DNA from: Verrucomicrobiota bacterium | Lineage (GTDB): Bacteria > Verrucomicrobiota > Verrucomicrobiia > Chthoniobacterales > UBA10450 | Length of the DNA: 39,388 bases | Assembly: GCA_003218975.1 (NCBI GenBank) | Contig: QHPD01000111.1 | Location: 1-39,388, forward strand | Reading direction: 5' to 3' | Shown here: piece after piece, positions 1,373-7,150 of the stretch | How positions within the stretch are numbered: position 1 is the first letter of the stretch | How the letters are laid out: every line of letters begins with the position of its first letter | The notes under the pieces: model-generated | Databases searched by the model: none | What the model was told of the DNA's origin: nothing | Seen by the model: the letters and a program-made list of their open reading frames with translations, nothing else | Program-made: the position numbers and the translations under genes

Positions 1373-1396
1373 AATCTACTGCTGCGTAGATTTTGC
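1369..1396. promoter_or_regulatory. 11-bp perfect hairpin across the rseP stop and ispG start
   Basis: gcaaaatctac (1369-1379) and gtagattttgc (1386-1396) are perfect inverted complements around a 6-nt loop. On the minus strand the stem contains both the rseP TAG (1376-1378) and the TTG start proposed for ispG (1370-1372). It has no adjacent T run, so a translational role is more plausible than termination. Confidence 0.5.
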
Positions 1397-3034
1397 CGAC
1401 GCTGCTTTTGGCAAGAATCTTGGAGTCTCGCGCCGGAAGCCAAACAAATCCTGCACGTCAAAGAAAGCGATGTAAATCATGAAGCCGATGATGACGACTG
1501 CGCAGGCGGTTTGCACCACTTCCAGCACCCGCATGCTCACCGGCCGCCGCCGCACTGCTTCGATGAGCGCAAGCAGGATATGCCCGCCATCGAGCACCGG
1601 AATAGGCAGCAAATTGAGCAGGGCCAGGTTCACATTAATCACTACGCTGAACCAAAGCGCCATTCGCCAGCCTTCTTTGCTGGAAAGCATTTTGTAATAG
1701 ACCTGCAACATCATTACAGGACCGCTCATGTGTTGCAGCCGGACGTCCGACTTTGGCGACGCGATCGCCCCCACAGTGCTAAAGATCGACAACATGCTTG
1801 AGCGGATCTGTTCCAGCGGCCGCGGATGTTTCACCATCATGTTGCCGTATTGATCGAGCGTGATCCCAAAGTCTTCGCTCCAAACAATTCCAATCCGTGC
1901 GACGGTGTCGCCGCGGGGAATTTCTGGCGTAACTTTCACCTCGCGTTTCGTCCCGTTGCGCAAGATCGACATTGTGATCGGCTGGCCAGTGTGGCGCTTG
2001 ATGTAATCGGAAATCGCAAGGGTGCTCTTTGCCGGTTGCCCATCTACTGCCAAAACGACGTCACCGCGCTGCAAACCGGCGCGCGCAGCCGGGCTGTCTT
2101 TAAACACGTCGTCGATCTTCGGGCTTCCCGGCTCAAATGGAACCTGAGTTTTCTTTCCGCCGCGCTCGACCGTGAGCGTGAGAGGCTCGCCCGGATGCTC
2201 ACGCATGTAATCCGCAATACCCAGAATCTCGTAGAGCGGTTGTCCGTTGATGGCGACAATCATGTCTCCCGGCCCCAAGCCCGCTCGCGCAGCAGGACTG
2301 GCCGGTTCCACCTTTGCGATCACGGGTTTTTCAGCCGGCACGATCCCGACTTCGCGAAATCCTTTGCGCACCCACCACTTGGTCTCCGGAACAATCGGGC
2401 GTGCTTCAACCGTTATTGTCTCGGACCTGCCATTTACGGTGCGCTCGATTGTGATCGGAATGGTTTCACCTTCGCTGCGAACAATGCGCCATTGAATGCT
2501 CTCCTCGCTCATTCCGCCAAAACGTGAGACACGATGGCCGTCCACCAAAAGAATCTTATCGCCCGCTTGCAACCCCGCCTGCGCTGCGGGTGAATCAGGC
2601 ACGACGTAACCGATCGTGGTAGTGGCTTCGGCTTCGCCTACAGGCCGACCGACCGTCCAAATAATGACGGCGAAAAGCACCGCAAGCAGAAAACTGAACA
2701 GCGGGCCGGCAAACGCCACGACGATCTTGTCGACCACAGAGATTTTCGGGAGCTTCGCACGATCGACATCCGCTTTTCCTTCGATGATGTCCATCGGCGC
2801 AAGTTGCGGCAGCGCGACGAAGCCGCCAAAGGGGAGAGACCCTAGCGAGTATTGCACGCCATTGATTGTTTTTTTCCAAATCGATTTCCCAAACCAGATG
2901 CCGAATTTCTCAATGTAAAGGCCGCGCCAGCGGGCGGCTAGGAAATGCCCCACTTCGTGGACGACGATGAGCAGATTAAAAAGGACGAGGACCTCTAGAA
3001 GGATGAAGAGGACGCGCGTGATATGAAGTAGCAT
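1376..3034 (-). CDS. rseP: RseP-type site-2 zinc metalloprotease
   Basis: Membrane-embedded zinc protease that cuts transmembrane segments, typically of anti-sigma factors in envelope stress signalling. The 552 residues show the HEVGH zinc motif at 26-30 in the first membrane helix and the third-ligand motif LDGG at 481-484 within NLLPIPVLDGGHI. Three PDZ-like domains lie between, at roughly 130-210, 230-300 and 303-375, each marked by DSPAAQAGL, ASPAARAGL and DSPAARAGL. E. coli RseP has two PDZ domains and about 450 residues, so this is a longer three-PDZ form. The gene lies between dxr and ispG on the same strand, a common order for the cdsA-dxr-rseP-ispG cluster. Confidence 0.93.
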   Translation of the reverse strand: MLLHITRVLFILLEVLVLFNLLIVVHEVGHFLAARWRGLYIEKFGIWFGKSIWKKTINGVQYSLGSLPFGGFVALPQLAPMDIIEGKADVDRAKLPKISVVDKIVVAFAGPLFSFLLAVLFAVIIWTVGRPVGEAEATTTIGYVVPDSPAAQAGLQAGDKILLVDGHRVSRFGGMSEESIQWRIVRSEGETIPITIERTVNGRSETITVEARPIVPETKWWVRKGFREVGIVPAEKPVIAKVEPASPAARAGLGPGDMIVAINGQPLYEILGIADYMREHPGEPLTLTVERGGKKTQVPFEPGSPKIDDVFKDSPAARAGLQRGDVVLAVDGQPAKSTLAISDYIKRHTGQPITMSILRNGTKREVKVTPEIPRGDTVARIGIVWSEDFGITLDQYGNMMVKHPRPLEQIRSSMLSIFSTVGAIASPKSDVRLQHMSGPVMMLQVYYKMLSSKEGWRMALWFSVVINVNLALLNLLPIPVLDGGHILLALIEAVRRRPVSMRVLEVVQTACAVVIIGFMIYIAFFDVQDLFGFRRETPRFLPKAASAKSTQQ

Positions 3035-3036
3035 GG

Positions 3037-3118
3037 TTAGTGATCAGTGATCGGTGACCAGTGATCGGTCGGACGCGCGCGAGCCGCTTCAACGTTTTAA
3101 CGCTTCAACACGTTCCCT
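3037..3118. repeat. Short-period repeats between dxr and rseP
   Basis: Positions 3039-3068 contain agtgatc, agtgatcg, gtgacc, agtgatcg with a period of 7-8 bp. Next to it, read on the minus strand, gtgttgaa, gcgttaaa, acgttgaa, gcgg repeat with a period of 8 at about 3088-3116. This second array runs through the last codons and stop of dxr and encodes its ERVEALKR tail. Confidence 0.65.
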
Positions 3119-4291
3119 CGCCTCCGCTCGCGCCCACTGATCGGCCTGCAATATCGCATCGAGATCTGGATGCGCAACGAGGGTGTGCTGGTTCATTACT
3201 TCTTCGACAATCTCCCAGATACCCGAAAAACGCACTTGTCGATCCAGAAACGCCGCGACCGCAACCTCATTCGCGGCGTTCATCACCGCAGGCAAGGTTC
3301 CGGCGGTCTCGCCTGCGCGCCGTGCCAGCGTCAGCGCTGGAAAATCGGCATATCGCGGCGTAAAAAATTCCAGCTTTGACAATTTCGAAAAGTCTAGTGG
3401 CGGCAGCGTGTTCGGGACACGGTCCGGCCAGGTCACCGCATATTGGATCGGGAAGCACATGTTCGAATAACTCAGTTGGGCGAGTGTTGAGCCATCGGCA
3501 AACTCGACCAGGGAATGCACAATGCTCTGCGGATGAATGACAACTTCCACGCGCTGCATCTCGACGCCGAAAAGCCAATGGGCTTCGATCATCTCCAGCC
3601 CTTTATTGAAAAGCGTAGCCGAATCGATTGTAATCTTGGGCCCCATGTTCCAAGTCGGATGTTTCAGCGCCTGCTCCGGGGTGATGGAATCAAAATCTTT
3701 TCGGGGCGTTTCCCGGAACGGCCCGCCTGAGGCGGTCAAAACAATGCGGCGAACCTCTTCGTGGCACGGGCTTCCAGCCCGTGAGTCCATCGGCGAGACG
3801 CCAATGCCACGGTAAAGACATTGAAAGATCGCGTTGTGTTCGGAGTCCACCGGCAAAACGTGCACACCGTGATCGCGCGCTTCGCGCATCACGATCTCGC
3901 CGGCCATTACCAGAATTTCCTTGCTTGCTACTGCCAGGTCCTTGCCAGTTTCGATCGCAGCTAGTGCAGGACGCAGTCCACCGGTGCCGACGATTGCGAC
4001 CAGCACCATGTCTGCATTCGTTAGACAAGCGATCTCGCGCAAGCCCACTTCGCCCGCAAAAATCCGCGGCTCGTAATCGAGAGCCTTGCGCAAGACGTCG
4101 ATCTTGGTTTCATCAACCAGGCAAACCGATTCTGGCCGCACTTCATTAGCCGCCGCAGCCAGCTTTTGCGCATTGCTGTTCGCTGCGATCCCGACAATCT
4201 GCATTCGCTCCGGAATATCTCGGGCCACTTTGAGTGCGCTGTCGCCGATTGACCCAGTCGCGCCCAAAATAACAACACGCTTACGCTTCAT
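3089..4291 (-). CDS. dxr: 1-deoxy-D-xylulose 5-phosphate reductoisomerase with in-frame insertion
   Basis: Converts 1-deoxy-D-xylulose 5-phosphate to MEP with NADPH, the first committed step of the MEP pathway. The 400 residues begin MKRKRVVILGATGSIG, with the nucleotide-binding glycine motif at 10-16. The metal-binding PVDSEHNA segment lies at 147-154 (D149, E151), followed by LTASGGPFRETP and later NKGLEMIEAHW with E233. Between IFQCLYR and VRRIVLTASGG lies an extra run, GIGVSPMDSRAGSPCHEE (about 162-179). In other Dxr proteins this loop is short. The extra run is encoded by a palindromic DNA element at 3760-3811 that keeps the frame. The C-terminal ERVEALKR is encoded by an octamer repeat. 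The enzyme is expected to be functional because all catalytic motifs are intact. Confidence 0.96.
   Translation of the reverse strand: MKRKRVVILGATGSIGDSALKVARDIPERMQIVGIAANSNAQKLAAAANEVRPESVCLVDETKIDVLRKALDYEPRIFAGEVGLREIACLTNADMVLVAIVGTGGLRPALAAIETGKDLAVASKEILVMAGEIVMREARDHGVHVLPVDSEHNAIFQCLYRGIGVSPMDSRAGSPCHEEVRRIVLTASGGPFRETPRKDFDSITPEQALKHPTWNMGPKITIDSATLFNKGLEMIEAHWLFGVEMQRVEVVIHPQSIVHSLVEFADGSTLAQLSYSNMCFPIQYAVTWPDRVPNTLPPLDFSKLSKLEFFTPRYADFPALTLARRAGETAGTLPAVMNAANEVAVAAFLDRQVRFSGIWEIVEEVMNQHTLVAHPDLDAILQADQWARAEARERVEALKR
3760..3811. repeat. 52-bp three-stem palindromic element inserted in frame in dxr
   Basis: The outer arms cgtggca (3760-3766) and tgccacg (3805-3811) are perfect inverted repeats. 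Inside are two hairpins: cacgggct (3765-3772) with agcccgtg (3776-3783) around tcc, and ggcg (3792-3795) with cgcc (3799-3802) around aga. The whole can fold as a three-way junction. It corresponds to an extra 17 residues of Dxr in a loop before LTASGG. The look is that of a dispersed REP/MITE-like repeat; copy number in the genome cannot be seen here. Confidence 0.75.
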
Positions 4292-4294
4292 TTA

Positions 4295-4321
4295 GACAGA
4301 ATGAACAAAATTAACAAAATG
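4295..4321. repeat. Nonamer-type repeat downstream of the GxxExxY gene
   Basis: gacagaatgaacaaaattaa followed by caaaatg is a degenerate tandem of acagaatga/acaaaatta units. A reverse-oriented relative lies at 4731-4757, so the two bracket the GxxExxY gene as imperfect inverted repeats. Confidence 0.55.
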
Positions 4322-4332
4322 ATTCTAGCTGA

Positions 4333-4743
4333 TCACAAAGAAGCTTGTTCTCTCTTCGGGAGACGAAATTTTCTCTTATACTCCAAGCGTTCTGCCCCGA
4401 AGTTAACGAGCAGGCCTTCATCGATAACGGTTGCCACAAGATAATTTACAAGCTGCACTTCGTGCGCCTTAGCAAGCGTTTGAATCGCTTTCAGCTCAAC
4501 GATAACCGCGTCGTCGACGAGCACATCGGCCGTGAACGCTCCCACGAGTTGACCATCGTAGTGGACCCTAATCGGTTTTTCGGCTTCAGACCTCAGCCCG
4601 GCTTTTCGTAACTCCCAAATCAACGCGTTTTGATAGACTGATTCTAGAAAGCCCGGACCAAGAGTCGAGTGCACTTTCATTGCCGCGCCGATCACTTGCC
4701 CACACAGATCGTATTCTTTCGACTCCTCTTCCATTCTGTTCAT
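4333..4743 (-). CDS. GxxExxY family protein
   Basis: Small protein of 136 residues with the diagnostic GFLESVY motif (31-37) in the context IGAAMKVHSTLGPGFLESVY, then FTADVLVDDAVIVELKAI, which resembles a PD-(D/E)xK core (D, then E-x-K). The family is very widespread in environmental bacteria and has no settled function; a nuclease-like fold has been proposed. It sits inside the otherwise conserved cdsA-dxr-rseP-ispG cluster, 21 bp after cdsA, and is bracketed by imperfect inverted copies of an acagaatga-type repeat. The start region MNRM is itself written by that repeat, so the second ATG (4734) may be the real start. This suggests arrival as a small mobile cassette, which is inference. Confidence 0.88.
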   Translation of the reverse strand: MNRMEEESKEYDLCGQVIGAAMKVHSTLGPGFLESVYQNALIWELRKAGLRSEAEKPIRVHYDGQLVGAFTADVLVDDAVIVELKAIQTLAKAHEVQLVNYLVATVIDEGLLVNFGAERLEYKRKFRLPKREQASL

Positions 4744-4757
4744 TCTGTTAATTCTGT
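4731..4757. repeat. Nonamer-type repeat at the start of the GxxExxY gene
   Basis: The minus strand reads gacagaattaacagaatgaa followed by cagaatgg, a degenerate tandem related to 4295-4321 but in opposite orientation. It supplies the first codons of the GxxExxY gene. Confidence 0.55.
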
Positions 4758-4764
4758 CGCCTCT

Positions 4765-5679
4765 CTACGGTACGCGAATTACCAGCCGCAGGTAAAAAAA
4801 CATCAACGGCGCGGTGAACAGCAGACTGTCCAAAAGATCTAGCGCGCCGCCAATTCCCGGCAACAGGTTCCCCGAATCCTTTACATCGGTGCTGCGTTTG
4901 ATAATCGATTCGGCCAGATCACCGACGATCGCGCCGAATCCGAGCAGCAAGCCAAGTATTGTCGCATGCGTCCAGGTAAGCGCATGCAAATGGCCGGGCA
5001 TCAACTTGAACAAAATTAAACTGCAAAACAGGGCAAAAATGAGCGCGCCGAAAAAACCTTCCCAGGTTTTCTTTGCACTGATGTGCGGCGTCATCAGGTG
5101 ACGCCCGATGGTGCTTCCGGTCAGATAAGCGCCCATGTCGGCGAATTTTGTGACCGCGATCAAGTACAAAACATAAAACTGCCCCGTCACAACGCCGGTG
5201 CTGGAGCGGGGCGTTAAATAAACGATTTTAGTGATGAAATTGTAGAGCCACAGCACGTAGAGCAGACCAAACAAAGTGTAAGCCATCGTTTGCAATGGCT
5301 CCTCATGGCGAAGCCGCGCAAACATTTGTCGGCCGAAGACAGTGAGCAGGAAAAAAAGTAGGACCGCTACTTCGAAGTCGTACGAACCTGCAGGCCCAAT
5401 CTTGGAGAAGTAATAAAAACTGCCGGCGAGCAGGACGGCGCCACAGATCATTCCGGTGATTTTAAAATTCGGGAGGCCTTTATGATCAAGCATCCGGTAA
5501 AACTCCAAGAGCCCGATCATTCCAAACACGCTGATCAACAGCCAAAAGAGGATCTCATATCCGGAGAACATAATCAGCAGCGCGATCGTCCAAAGCGCGA
5601 CGGTGCTGATAAATCGCAAAATAAAGATCGAGCGCGGCGTGACTGCGTTCGCGCCGGCTTGCTCAAGCGTGGTACGCAT
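4765..5679 (-). CDS. cdsA: Phosphatidate cytidylyltransferase (CDP-diacylglycerol synthase)
   Basis: Makes CDP-diacylglycerol from phosphatidate and CTP at the inner membrane, the branch point for phospholipids. The 304-residue protein has about eight hydrophobic helices and the C-terminal family signature at about 253-290: SIIKRSTDVKDSGNLLPGIG followed by GALDLLDS. The consensus is usually written S-x2-KR-x4-KD-x5-PGHGG-x2-DR-x-D. Here His is Ile and Arg is Leu, while the Lys, Asp and Gly positions remain. The preceding SAKKTWEGFFG motif is intact. It is the first gene seen of the dxr-rseP-ispG cluster; uppS, often placed before it, is not present here. The partner upstream is the divergent tdh. 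Confidence 0.93.
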   Translation of the reverse strand: MRTTLEQAGANAVTPRSIFILRFISTVALWTIALLIMFSGYEILFWLLISVFGMIGLLEFYRMLDHKGLPNFKITGMICGAVLLAGSFYYFSKIGPAGSYDFEVAVLLFFLLTVFGRQMFARLRHEEPLQTMAYTLFGLLYVLWLYNFITKIVYLTPRSSTGVVTGQFYVLYLIAVTKFADMGAYLTGSTIGRHLMTPHISAKKTWEGFFGALIFALFCSLILFKLMPGHLHALTWTHATILGLLLGFGAIVGDLAESIIKRSTDVKDSGNLLPGIGGALDLLDSLLFTAPLMFFYLRLVIRVP

Positions 5680-5712
5680 TTAGTTGCATCATCCTAACGG
5701 AATAAATTTTGT

Positions 5713-5788
5713 CCACAGATTACGCAGATCTCGCGGATCGGATTCTGAATCTTCCTCACGATTCGCTGTGAATCTGCGAAATCTGTGG
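5713..5788. repeat. Head-to-head 17-bp inverted repeat between cdsA and tdh
   Basis: ccacagattacgcagat (5713-5729) and atctgcgaaatctgtgg (5772-5788) are inverted complements with one mismatch, separated by 42 bp. The left arm continues as a 9-bp-period tandem (cacagatta, cgcagatct, cgcggatcg). It lies in the divergent promoter region of cdsA and tdh. Confidence 0.65.
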
Positions 5789-5813
5789 GTAATTTTCCGT
5801 CGTGCAAAAAACG

Positions 5814-6845
5814 ATGAAGGCCGTCGTGAAGGCCATGGCCGAACCGGGGCTGTGGCTCGAGGAAGTTCCGGTTCCAAACGTTGGCAGCGATGACGTGCTG
5901 ATCCGGGTCTTGAAAACGTCCATCTGCGGAACCGACGTGCACATCTACAACTGGGACGCGTGGGCGCAGAAAACGATTCCTGTGCCCATGACAATTGGTC
6001 ATGAGTTTGTCGGCGTTGTCGATGTCGTCGGCGATCATGTAAAAGGTTTCGCCAAAGGCGACCTCATCGTTGGCGAAGGTCACATCACCTGTGGTCATTG
6101 CCGCAATTGCCTGGCGGGGCGGCGTCATCTTTGTCCGAACACGCAGGGCGTCGGCGTCAATCGCCCAGGCGCATGGGCCGAATTTGTGGCGATCCCGCAG
6201 GACAACTGTTGGCACGCCGATCCGTCGATCTCGCTCGATGTGCTTTCCTGTTTCGATCCGCTAGGCAATGCTGTGCACACTGCGCTCTCGTTCGATCTCG
6301 TCGGCGAAGATGTGCTCATCACTGGCGCAGGACCGATCGGTTGCATGGCCATTCCGATCTGCAAACGTGCCGGCGCGCGTCACGTCGTGATCACAGACGT
6401 GAACCCGTATCGCCTCGATCTCGCGCGCAAGATGGGAGCTGATGTCGCGCTGGATGTGCGAACGGAAAAAGTCAGCGACGCGATGTACAAGCTTGGCATG
6501 AAAGAAGGTTTTGACGTTGCCCTGGAAATGTCCGGCAATCCAAAAGCTTTCGCGGACATTTTGCCGAACATGTTTCACGGCGGCAAAATGGCGCTGCTCG
6601 GCATCATGCCCGGGAGCGCCGCGATCGATTGGAACACCGTTGTATTCAGCGCCCTGACGCTGAAGGGAATTTATGGCCGCGAGATGTACGAGACCTGGTA
6701 CAAAATGACCGCCATGATCCAGAGCGGCCTCGACATCTCACCGGTCATCACGCACCGTTTTCCCTACGCGCAATTCAAAGAAGCCATCGAGCTGATGAAA
6801 TCCGGCAACTCCGGCAAAATCGTCCTCGACTGGAGCGAACTTTAA
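5814..6845 (+). CDS. tdh: L-threonine 3-dehydrogenase
   Basis: Zinc-dependent medium-chain dehydrogenase oxidising L-threonine to 2-amino-3-ketobutyrate with NAD. From ATG 5814 the protein has 343 residues, close to E. coli Tdh (341), and begins [14 protein letters not shown]; an in-frame GTG at 5802 would add four residues. Visible motifs: [14 protein letters not shown] with catalytic C38, GHEF with H63 and E64, the structural zinc cysteines C93, C96, C99 and C107 in [11 protein letters not shown] and HLC, and the Rossmann GAGPIG at 171-176. The IKGIYGREM-type segment ([16 protein letters not shown]) is also typical of Tdh. The usual partner kbl is not adjacent, so it appears as a single-gene unit ending at the hairpin near 6923-6958. 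Confidence 0.96.
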
Positions 6846-6853
6846 TTTTTCAA

Positions 6854-6882
6854 CCGCGGATTACACGGATGTCGCAGATTTC
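6854..6882. repeat. 9-bp-period repeat after tdh
   Basis: ccgcggattacacggatgtc followed by gcagatttc contains cgcggatta, cacggatgt, cgcagattt with a 9-bp period. It is the same motif family as 5713-5788. Confidence 0.5.
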
Positions 6883-6922
6883 ATTTATGTCATTCCGAGG
6901 GAAGTCGAGGTTTGAAAAAAAC

Positions 6923-6958
6923 AAAATGCCCGAATCAAATTCTCGATCCGGGCATTTT
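6923..6958 (-). terminator. Rho-independent terminator of 6S RNA, probably bidirectional
   Basis: aaaatgcccg (6923-6932) pairs perfectly with cgggcatttt (6949-6958) around a 16-nt loop. On the minus strand the stem is followed by ttttgttttttt, a good T tract for the 6S RNA; on the plus strand a short T run could also stop tdh transcription. Confidence 0.8.
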
Positions 6959-6959
6959 T

Positions 6960-7150
6960 AAAATTTTACCCCGCCGGTGTCGTTCAGGCGGATCGCCCGT
7001 TCCCTTTCGTAACGGGTGGATGACCGTCGCCGCAGCGTCTGACTTCCAACTAAGGCCTGCCATGTTCTCCGGCAACTCAGCCTCCTTTGAGTTCATCAAT
7101 TATCGGTTCGGGTATCCCACCTCCAATCTCGAACATCGCAGGGTAAATTC
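6960..7150 (-). ncRNA. ssrS: 6S RNA
   Basis: Regulator of sigma70-RNA polymerase that mimics an open promoter. On the minus strand the sequence follows the 6S layout: GATGTTCG near the 5' end, AACCGATA, a stem AACTCA/CTGAGTT, GAACATGG, then AGTC...GCTGCGGCGACGGTCATCC, a CCCGTT/AACGGG hairpin, and a 3' strand that closes with the 5' end. The closing stem is visible: 7138-7147 pairs with 6965-6974 over 10 bp including one G-U. A rho-independent terminator follows at once. The RNA begins about 93 nt after the pheT stop, so it could be made from its own promoter or processed from pheST read-through. Ends are estimates. Identification rests on pattern memory, not on a covariance search. Confidence 0.78.

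Follow-up and report, generated by a model that had tools for sequence, protein, structure and literature searches.

GxxExxY genes between inverted word arrays as candidate REP/RAYT-like mobile elements

GxxExxY genes and the inverted arrays of short words that bracket them probably form minimal REP/RAYT-like mobile elements driven by a putative Cas4/RecB-like nuclease, a reading drawn from comparisons of sequences and from a predicted fold. The gene under study lies between cdsA and dxr in the window, by which we mean the whole 39,388-nt stretch of DNA that was analyzed. The name GxxExxY is attached to many genes but to no function; it appears in the available text of PMC8934634 and PMC12085832, and PDDEXK_3/PF13366 appears in that of PMC9756366. 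No prior account of GxxExxY word-armed cassettes or of their repeat strings was found in the open literature, with subscription journals and preprints lying mostly outside the scope of the search. If GxxExxY is indeed the enzyme of a word-armed cassette, this would explain both its patchiness and the short intergenic repeats that recur near it.

The cassette at the cdsA-dxr junction

An earlier note on this DNA described a GxxExxY gene flanked by imperfect inverted repeats between cdsA and dxr, and our analysis confirms this structure. The features are as follows.

3089..4291, minus strand: dxr (DXP reductoisomerase), downstream neighbor of the cassette
4295..4758, minus strand: whole cassette, 464 nt, in sense orientation at the cdsA-dxr junction
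4295..4321, plus strand: arm at the 3' end of the GxxExxY gene, three ACARAATKA words reading inward
4333..4743, minus strand: GxxExxY gene, 136 aa, predicted Cas4/RecB-like PD-(D/E)XK nuclease domain (profile matches and fold)
4732..4758, minus strand: arm at the 5' end of the GxxExxY gene, three ACAGAATKA words reading inward
4765..5679, minus strand: cdsA (phosphatidate cytidylyltransferase), upstream neighbor of the cassette
5713..5788, unstranded: gene-less element of the same kind, inverted arms of CACAGAT/CGCAGAT words around a short spacer
6855..6879, plus strand: single arm with CGCGGAT/CACGGAT/CGCAGAT words

The two arms (4295 to 4321 and 4732 to 4758) form a 27-nt inverted repeat that is 85% complementary, and their alignment score of 34 was equaled in 1 of 2,000 Markov shuffles of the flanks. 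Each arm consists of three units of ~9 nt of the type ACARAATKA (ACAGAATGA ACAAAATTA ACAAAATG in one and ACAGAATTA ACAGAATGA ACAGAATG in the other). A gap of 6 nt separates the cassette from the cdsA stop codon and one of 3 nt separates it from the dxr start, and the 5'-end arm overlaps the start codon of the GxxExxY gene. The next gene stands between the gene-less CACAGAT-type pair at 5713 to 5788 and the single CGCGGAT-type arm at 6855 to 6879.

The window gene matched TIGR04256 (E = 1.3e-41; 141.6 bits against a cutoff of 35) and PF13366 (PDDEXK_3; E = 1.6e-39; 135.3 bits against a cutoff of 22), the latter being the sole Pfam match of its protein. An AlphaFold model of the protein (pLDDT, 90.1; pTM, 0.82) was closest in fold to SSO0001, which we take to be a Cas4 protein (Foldseek E = 2.4e-4; Z = 9.8 and rmsd 4.0 over 107 residues). 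Further matches included LHK-Exo, lambda exonuclease, AdnAB, and Hjc, and most of the fold matches had Z scores below 8 and may reflect a common fold only. D73, E83, K85, and Q97 were invariant among 49 sequences; the first three occupy the D...ExK active-site positions of PD-(D/E)XK enzymes on the predicted fold, consistent with a putative nuclease activity. QxxxY is a motif of RecB and Cas4 proteins, and Cas4 has four cysteines at its Fe-S site. GxxExxY resembles the Cas4/RecB/lambda exonuclease branch in its best fold neighbors and its D...ExK...QxxxY residues but is smaller, and the window protein has a single cysteine instead of the four of Cas4.

Inverted arms around other GxxExxY genes

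Ten matching rows in the genome of the window resolved into eight places with a GxxExxY gene, of which two are broken. Seven had inverted arrays, each built from a different word (CGCAGAG, ACAGAAT, CGCAGAT, CACGAAT, CGCGGAT, CACGAAG, and CACAGAT), and the arrays at the eighth, broken place (L010) were degenerate. The question raised earlier, whether other GxxExxY genes of this genome have the same flanks, can thus be answered in the affirmative for the layout of inverted arrays but in the negative for the letters, as each place has its own word.

Our survey covered 184 distinct near-full GxxExxY genes from relatives and 80 named loci, the latter among the matches listed (587 matching stretches), and arms were scored at the 179 of 184 genes with at least 100 nt on each side. 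An inverted-arm score of at least 25 was found at 154 of 179 GxxExxY loci, compared to 6 of 139 control open reading frames (ORFs) from the same loci, and a score of at least 30 was found at 135 and 2, respectively; one of these two top-scoring controls (L005) sits in its own nest of arrays. The other 25 GxxExxY loci had no arms at the threshold of 25. Arms scoring at least 25 were also prevalent in nonredundant sets (95 of 115 at <75% identity and 40 of 50 at <60%) and, among the matches listed, at 63 of 77 named loci from at least 14 phyla, from Bacteroidota to Methanobacteriota, including archaea. A loose word scan of the window showed no excess of runs of two, while a stricter scan found 48 arrays in 308,760 bases of contigs chosen for their GxxExxY content, versus 5 to 11 in five shuffles. 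Positions 1 to 5300 of L223 (G000:C90) are densely packed with arrays from several word classes, some lying close to one another.

Movement, descent, and gene-less derivatives

The suggestion that gene and repeats behave as one tiny cassette gains support from close relatives with arms in unrelated surroundings. Among 153 protein pairs with at least 70% identity and at least 300 nt comparable on each side, 64 had no homologous flank. Most of these 64 had arms of the same word class by eye; L103 and L116, which contribute six of them, had no clear arms. Flanks were shared in the other 89 pairs, and since so many close pairs share flanks, movement is apparently rare and descent common. Ten pairs were aligned outward from the gene; identity dropped to background around the arm ends, a drop that was clean in L069/L175 and L193/L203 and noisy in some others, e.g., L045/L153. 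No fixed-length target-site duplication was found in 14-nt and 45-nt flanks, where matched flanks hardly exceeded mismatched ones; L054, L200, and L209 have direct repeats of 7 to 8 nt around the next start codon, possibly by chance. Spread by plasmids or phages was considered and rejected: relatives of one query protein were rare on plasmids (8 of 72,556 records) and absent from the phage set (0 of 50,697 records).

We compared the cdsA-dxr junction at 30 loci for empty sites, as had been proposed, and the gene proved absent from many relatives. Counts refer to the 28 junctions with both cdsA and dxr, the window included (L026 and L037, without cdsA, were omitted). The window cassette was intact at six (L011, L018, L028, L029, L034, and L035), truncated at one (L024), and reduced to a right-arm remnant at one (L033). 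A different GxxExxY gene, 32% identical and with CACGAAT arms, occupied two junctions (L015 and L025). Eleven held gene-less inverted arms, nine with CACGAAT, of which L030 and L032 had just short parts of arms left, and two with CACGGAT; some of the gene-less arrays at these junctions were nested inside others. Two junctions contained something else (L022 and L036), and five held merely 0 to 31 nt (L021, L031, and L038 to L040). Junction state changed at least 12 times on the cdsA/dxr protein tree. Early branches of the genus carry the window cassette, so the data fit repeated gain and ancient presence followed by losses and replacement equally well.

Gene-less elements were found elsewhere, too. 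Of 27 distinct array pairs unmarked for GxxExxY, 23 enclosed 3 to 124 nt (362 nt in one case) with no 60-aa ORF, two did hold GxxExxY (one truncated), and two spanned >1.6 kb. At another locus, in genome G028, L280 by eye keeps part of the 5' end of the window gene beside an arm and appears to be an internal-deletion derivative of the window cassette. ACAGAAT arrays occurred in 24 of 58 genomes, and arrays of the reversed pattern occurred in 0 of 58. Outside the genus the ACAGAAT arrays were confined to G039 and G054, which have relatives at 51% and 60% identity, and G036, with a 55% relative, carries a variant word (L162). Within the genus, word arrays were only loosely linked to gene presence: of the 27 genus genomes that lack the window subfamily, 15 still had ACAGAAT arrays, and G023, which has a broken copy, had none.

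Word class tracks protein clade

The earlier note was silent on gene-less derivatives and on a further feature, namely, that the arrays follow the protein clade. Words were assigned to three classes (..AG, ..AT/AA, and GGAA), a grouping picked after viewing the first tree, and 20 of the 154 armed loci had no clear word class and were dropped before the three-class test. With this grouping, 41 relatives (<75% identity) had 2 word-class changes on the protein tree, which is the minimum (shuffled mean, 16.7; 0 of 200 shuffles as low), and 87 rows from all phyla had 4 (shuffled mean, 22.1). With our initial word calls (12 fine classes, 90 rows), the tree had 33 changes, compared to 49.4 when shuffled. 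Arm k-mers were weakly correlated with protein identity (Mantel r = 0.117 for pairs below 60% identity; 1 of 500 permutations as high), and the tree grouping by word class was far clearer than this plain k-mer correlation. Word classes occur side by side in the genus and in the genome of the window, so host lineage does not explain the agreement between word and protein. The AG and AT protein classes differ mainly in the T or N of a QxxTY/QxxNY motif and in a C-terminal insertion.

Proposed mechanism and alternatives

From this co-specificity, the fold, and the conserved residues, we infer that the best mechanism is a GxxExxY nuclease that targets its own words. The protein would recognize its own word class at both ends of the element, binding the words as tandem DNA sites, and cut DNA at the bound words. 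Host repair or replication would then copy the element into short intergenic gaps, without a fixed target duplication, and gene-less copies would move with the enzyme acting in trans, as proposed for REP elements and RAYT proteins. Such a mechanism predicts which protein reads which word. Because the left array overlaps the start codon, binding there may also limit the gene's own expression. In L002, L003, L050, and other loci, frames are often open through the left array, with repeated short peptides before the likely start.

It is unlikely, in our assessment, that the word arrays are moved or made by some other process (strand slippage, template switching, or an enzyme encoded elsewhere) and that GxxExxY is a passenger acquired by recombination between like words. 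Such a process would account for gene-less arrays being common and sometimes nested, for the same layout in an unrelated four-helix-bundle family (see below), and for the lack of target duplication. It would sit poorly with the almost perfect tracking of protein clade by word class, with the invariance of the proposed active site, and with GxxExxY being the sole gene between arms in closely placed array pairs, in a sample centered on GxxExxY.

The cassette might also be a domesticated host module for repair, defense, or regulation, inherited mainly by descent, with its arms as operator or target sites. At the junction, dN/dS was 0.03 to 0.13 (11 of 15 pairs with estimable dS), indicating that the window gene is probably under purifying selection; copies persist there across near-saturated synonymous divergence, and the left array extends to the start codon in the GxxExxY loci inspected, all of which is consistent with a host function. 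We nevertheless consider this explanation quite improbable, since the gene is patchy (0 to 12 matches per genome within one genus), occurs in broken copies, and is found in unrelated surroundings. In addition, PADLOC gave no strong match to antiphage defense systems, only weak matches of the Cas4 type, RTasPDDEXK, and the like (best E values, 0.00014 to RTasPDDEXK for the L041 protein and 0.0012 to Cas4 for the window protein).

Words conserved as DNA

In 72 nonredundant loci with a recognizable word, identified by matching a pattern in one arm, the mismatch between arms was 5.4% in the 7-nt word cores versus 28.5% in the spacers (P = 1.7e-38). The upstream arm had three words in 44 of these loci, with word starts mostly 8 to 10 nt apart. 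Arm-to-arm transitions at 101 loci showed no G-U bias (111 compatible versus 111 incompatible), and the count in the ..AT word subset opposed an RNA stem (14 versus 30; P = 0.02). No Rfam family matched positions 3000 to 7000 of the window. What is kept thus seems to be the words, as DNA, and not an RNA stem, since the words are conserved, the spacers are not, and G-U bias is lacking. The missing bias and the 5-fold greater drift of the spacers led us to reject an RNA stem as the main conserved feature, and DNA sites read by a protein would fit the conservation of words better than an RNA helix.

Cassette orientation was surveyed at 38 named loci, among the matches listed, with a callable gene on each side. 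Cassettes were in sense with both neighbors at 28 loci, antisense to both at 2, and between divergent or convergent genes at 8; with codirectional neighbors, 28 of 30 were therefore in sense (binomial P = 8.7e-7). Arms lay a median of 6 nt past the upstream ORF and 18 nt ahead of the next. A GxxExxY cassette stands between fabD and fabG on a Sphingomonas parapaucimobilis replicon (L211, 1994 to 2459). An RNA-level element resembling the 23S rRNA intervening sequence (IVS), with a transcript stem cut by RNase III and the cassette thus tolerated in operons, would suit this sense orientation and would recall the Coxiella IVS, in which tandem heptamers precede S23p and the ends form a 28-bp stem (available text of PMC4990558), but is very improbable given the balanced G-U counts, the lack of an Rfam match, and the drift of spacers that would need to pair in a stem.

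Comparison with known systems and a possible wider class

In the available text of PMC2817692, RAYTs are transposases related to IS200/IS605, each a small gene between inverted repeats, with the repeats coevolving and gene-less copies scattered. GxxExxY shares an analogous layout, in which inverted repeats appear to coevolve with the bracketed gene, and gene-less repeats are dispersed in the genome. Unlike RAYT, it has no IS200/IS605-type tyrosine transposase domain, with Pfam giving PDDEXK_3 only, and REPs are imperfect palindromes, whereas each GxxExxY arm repeats 7-nt words in tandem. If true, our reading would make GxxExxY a PD-(D/E)XK counterpart to REP/RAYT, with an enzyme of a kind that would not ordinarily be called a transposase. 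Like insertion sequences and MITEs, the cassettes have terminal inverted repeats and internally deleted derivatives that lack the gene, but there is no recognized transposase and no fixed target duplication, and the ends are tandem words that differ by protein clade. Rpn proteins are members of the PD-(D/E)XK group as well. Like GxxExxY, Rpn (PF04754) is a small, widespread nuclease family, tied to DNA mobilization in the available text of PMC5350276, but it is a different Pfam family. The 23S rRNA IVS, a ~430-nt element with one small ORF and ~28-nt inverted ends in the available text of PMC4990558, is similar in plan; the GxxExxY cassette differs in having a nuclease domain instead of S23p, a period of 8 to 11 nt, a location between protein genes, and arms with a DNA conservation signal (no G-U bias, spacers not kept) in place of an RNA stem.

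Four-helix-bundle PF05635 (23S_rRNA_IVP) genes in the same genomes had inverted arms at 27 of 30 loci (L229 to L258), with a sharp 7-nt period, e.g., GTTGAGA or GTGACGA. A small gene between inverted word arrays is thus not unique to GxxExxY, and because a nonnuclease family has this layout too, the mover of the arms may not be a nuclease. We tentatively raise the possibility, slightly on the doubtful side, that GxxExxY cassettes represent a new class of mobile element: a lone ~130-aa Cas4/RecB-type nuclease with ends of tandem 7-nt word arrays read by protein class (marked by QxxTY/QxxNY and the C-terminal insertion), which would integrate into operons of bacteria and archaea without target duplication, seed gene-less copies, and belong with the S23 four-helix elements of 7-nt period to a wider superclass of word-armed single-gene cassettes. 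In the window, an array of the PF05635 type (GTGATCA GTGATCG GTGACCA GTGATCG), with no PF05635 gene seen beside it, lies at 3040 to 3067, between the gene at 1376 to 3034 and dxr.
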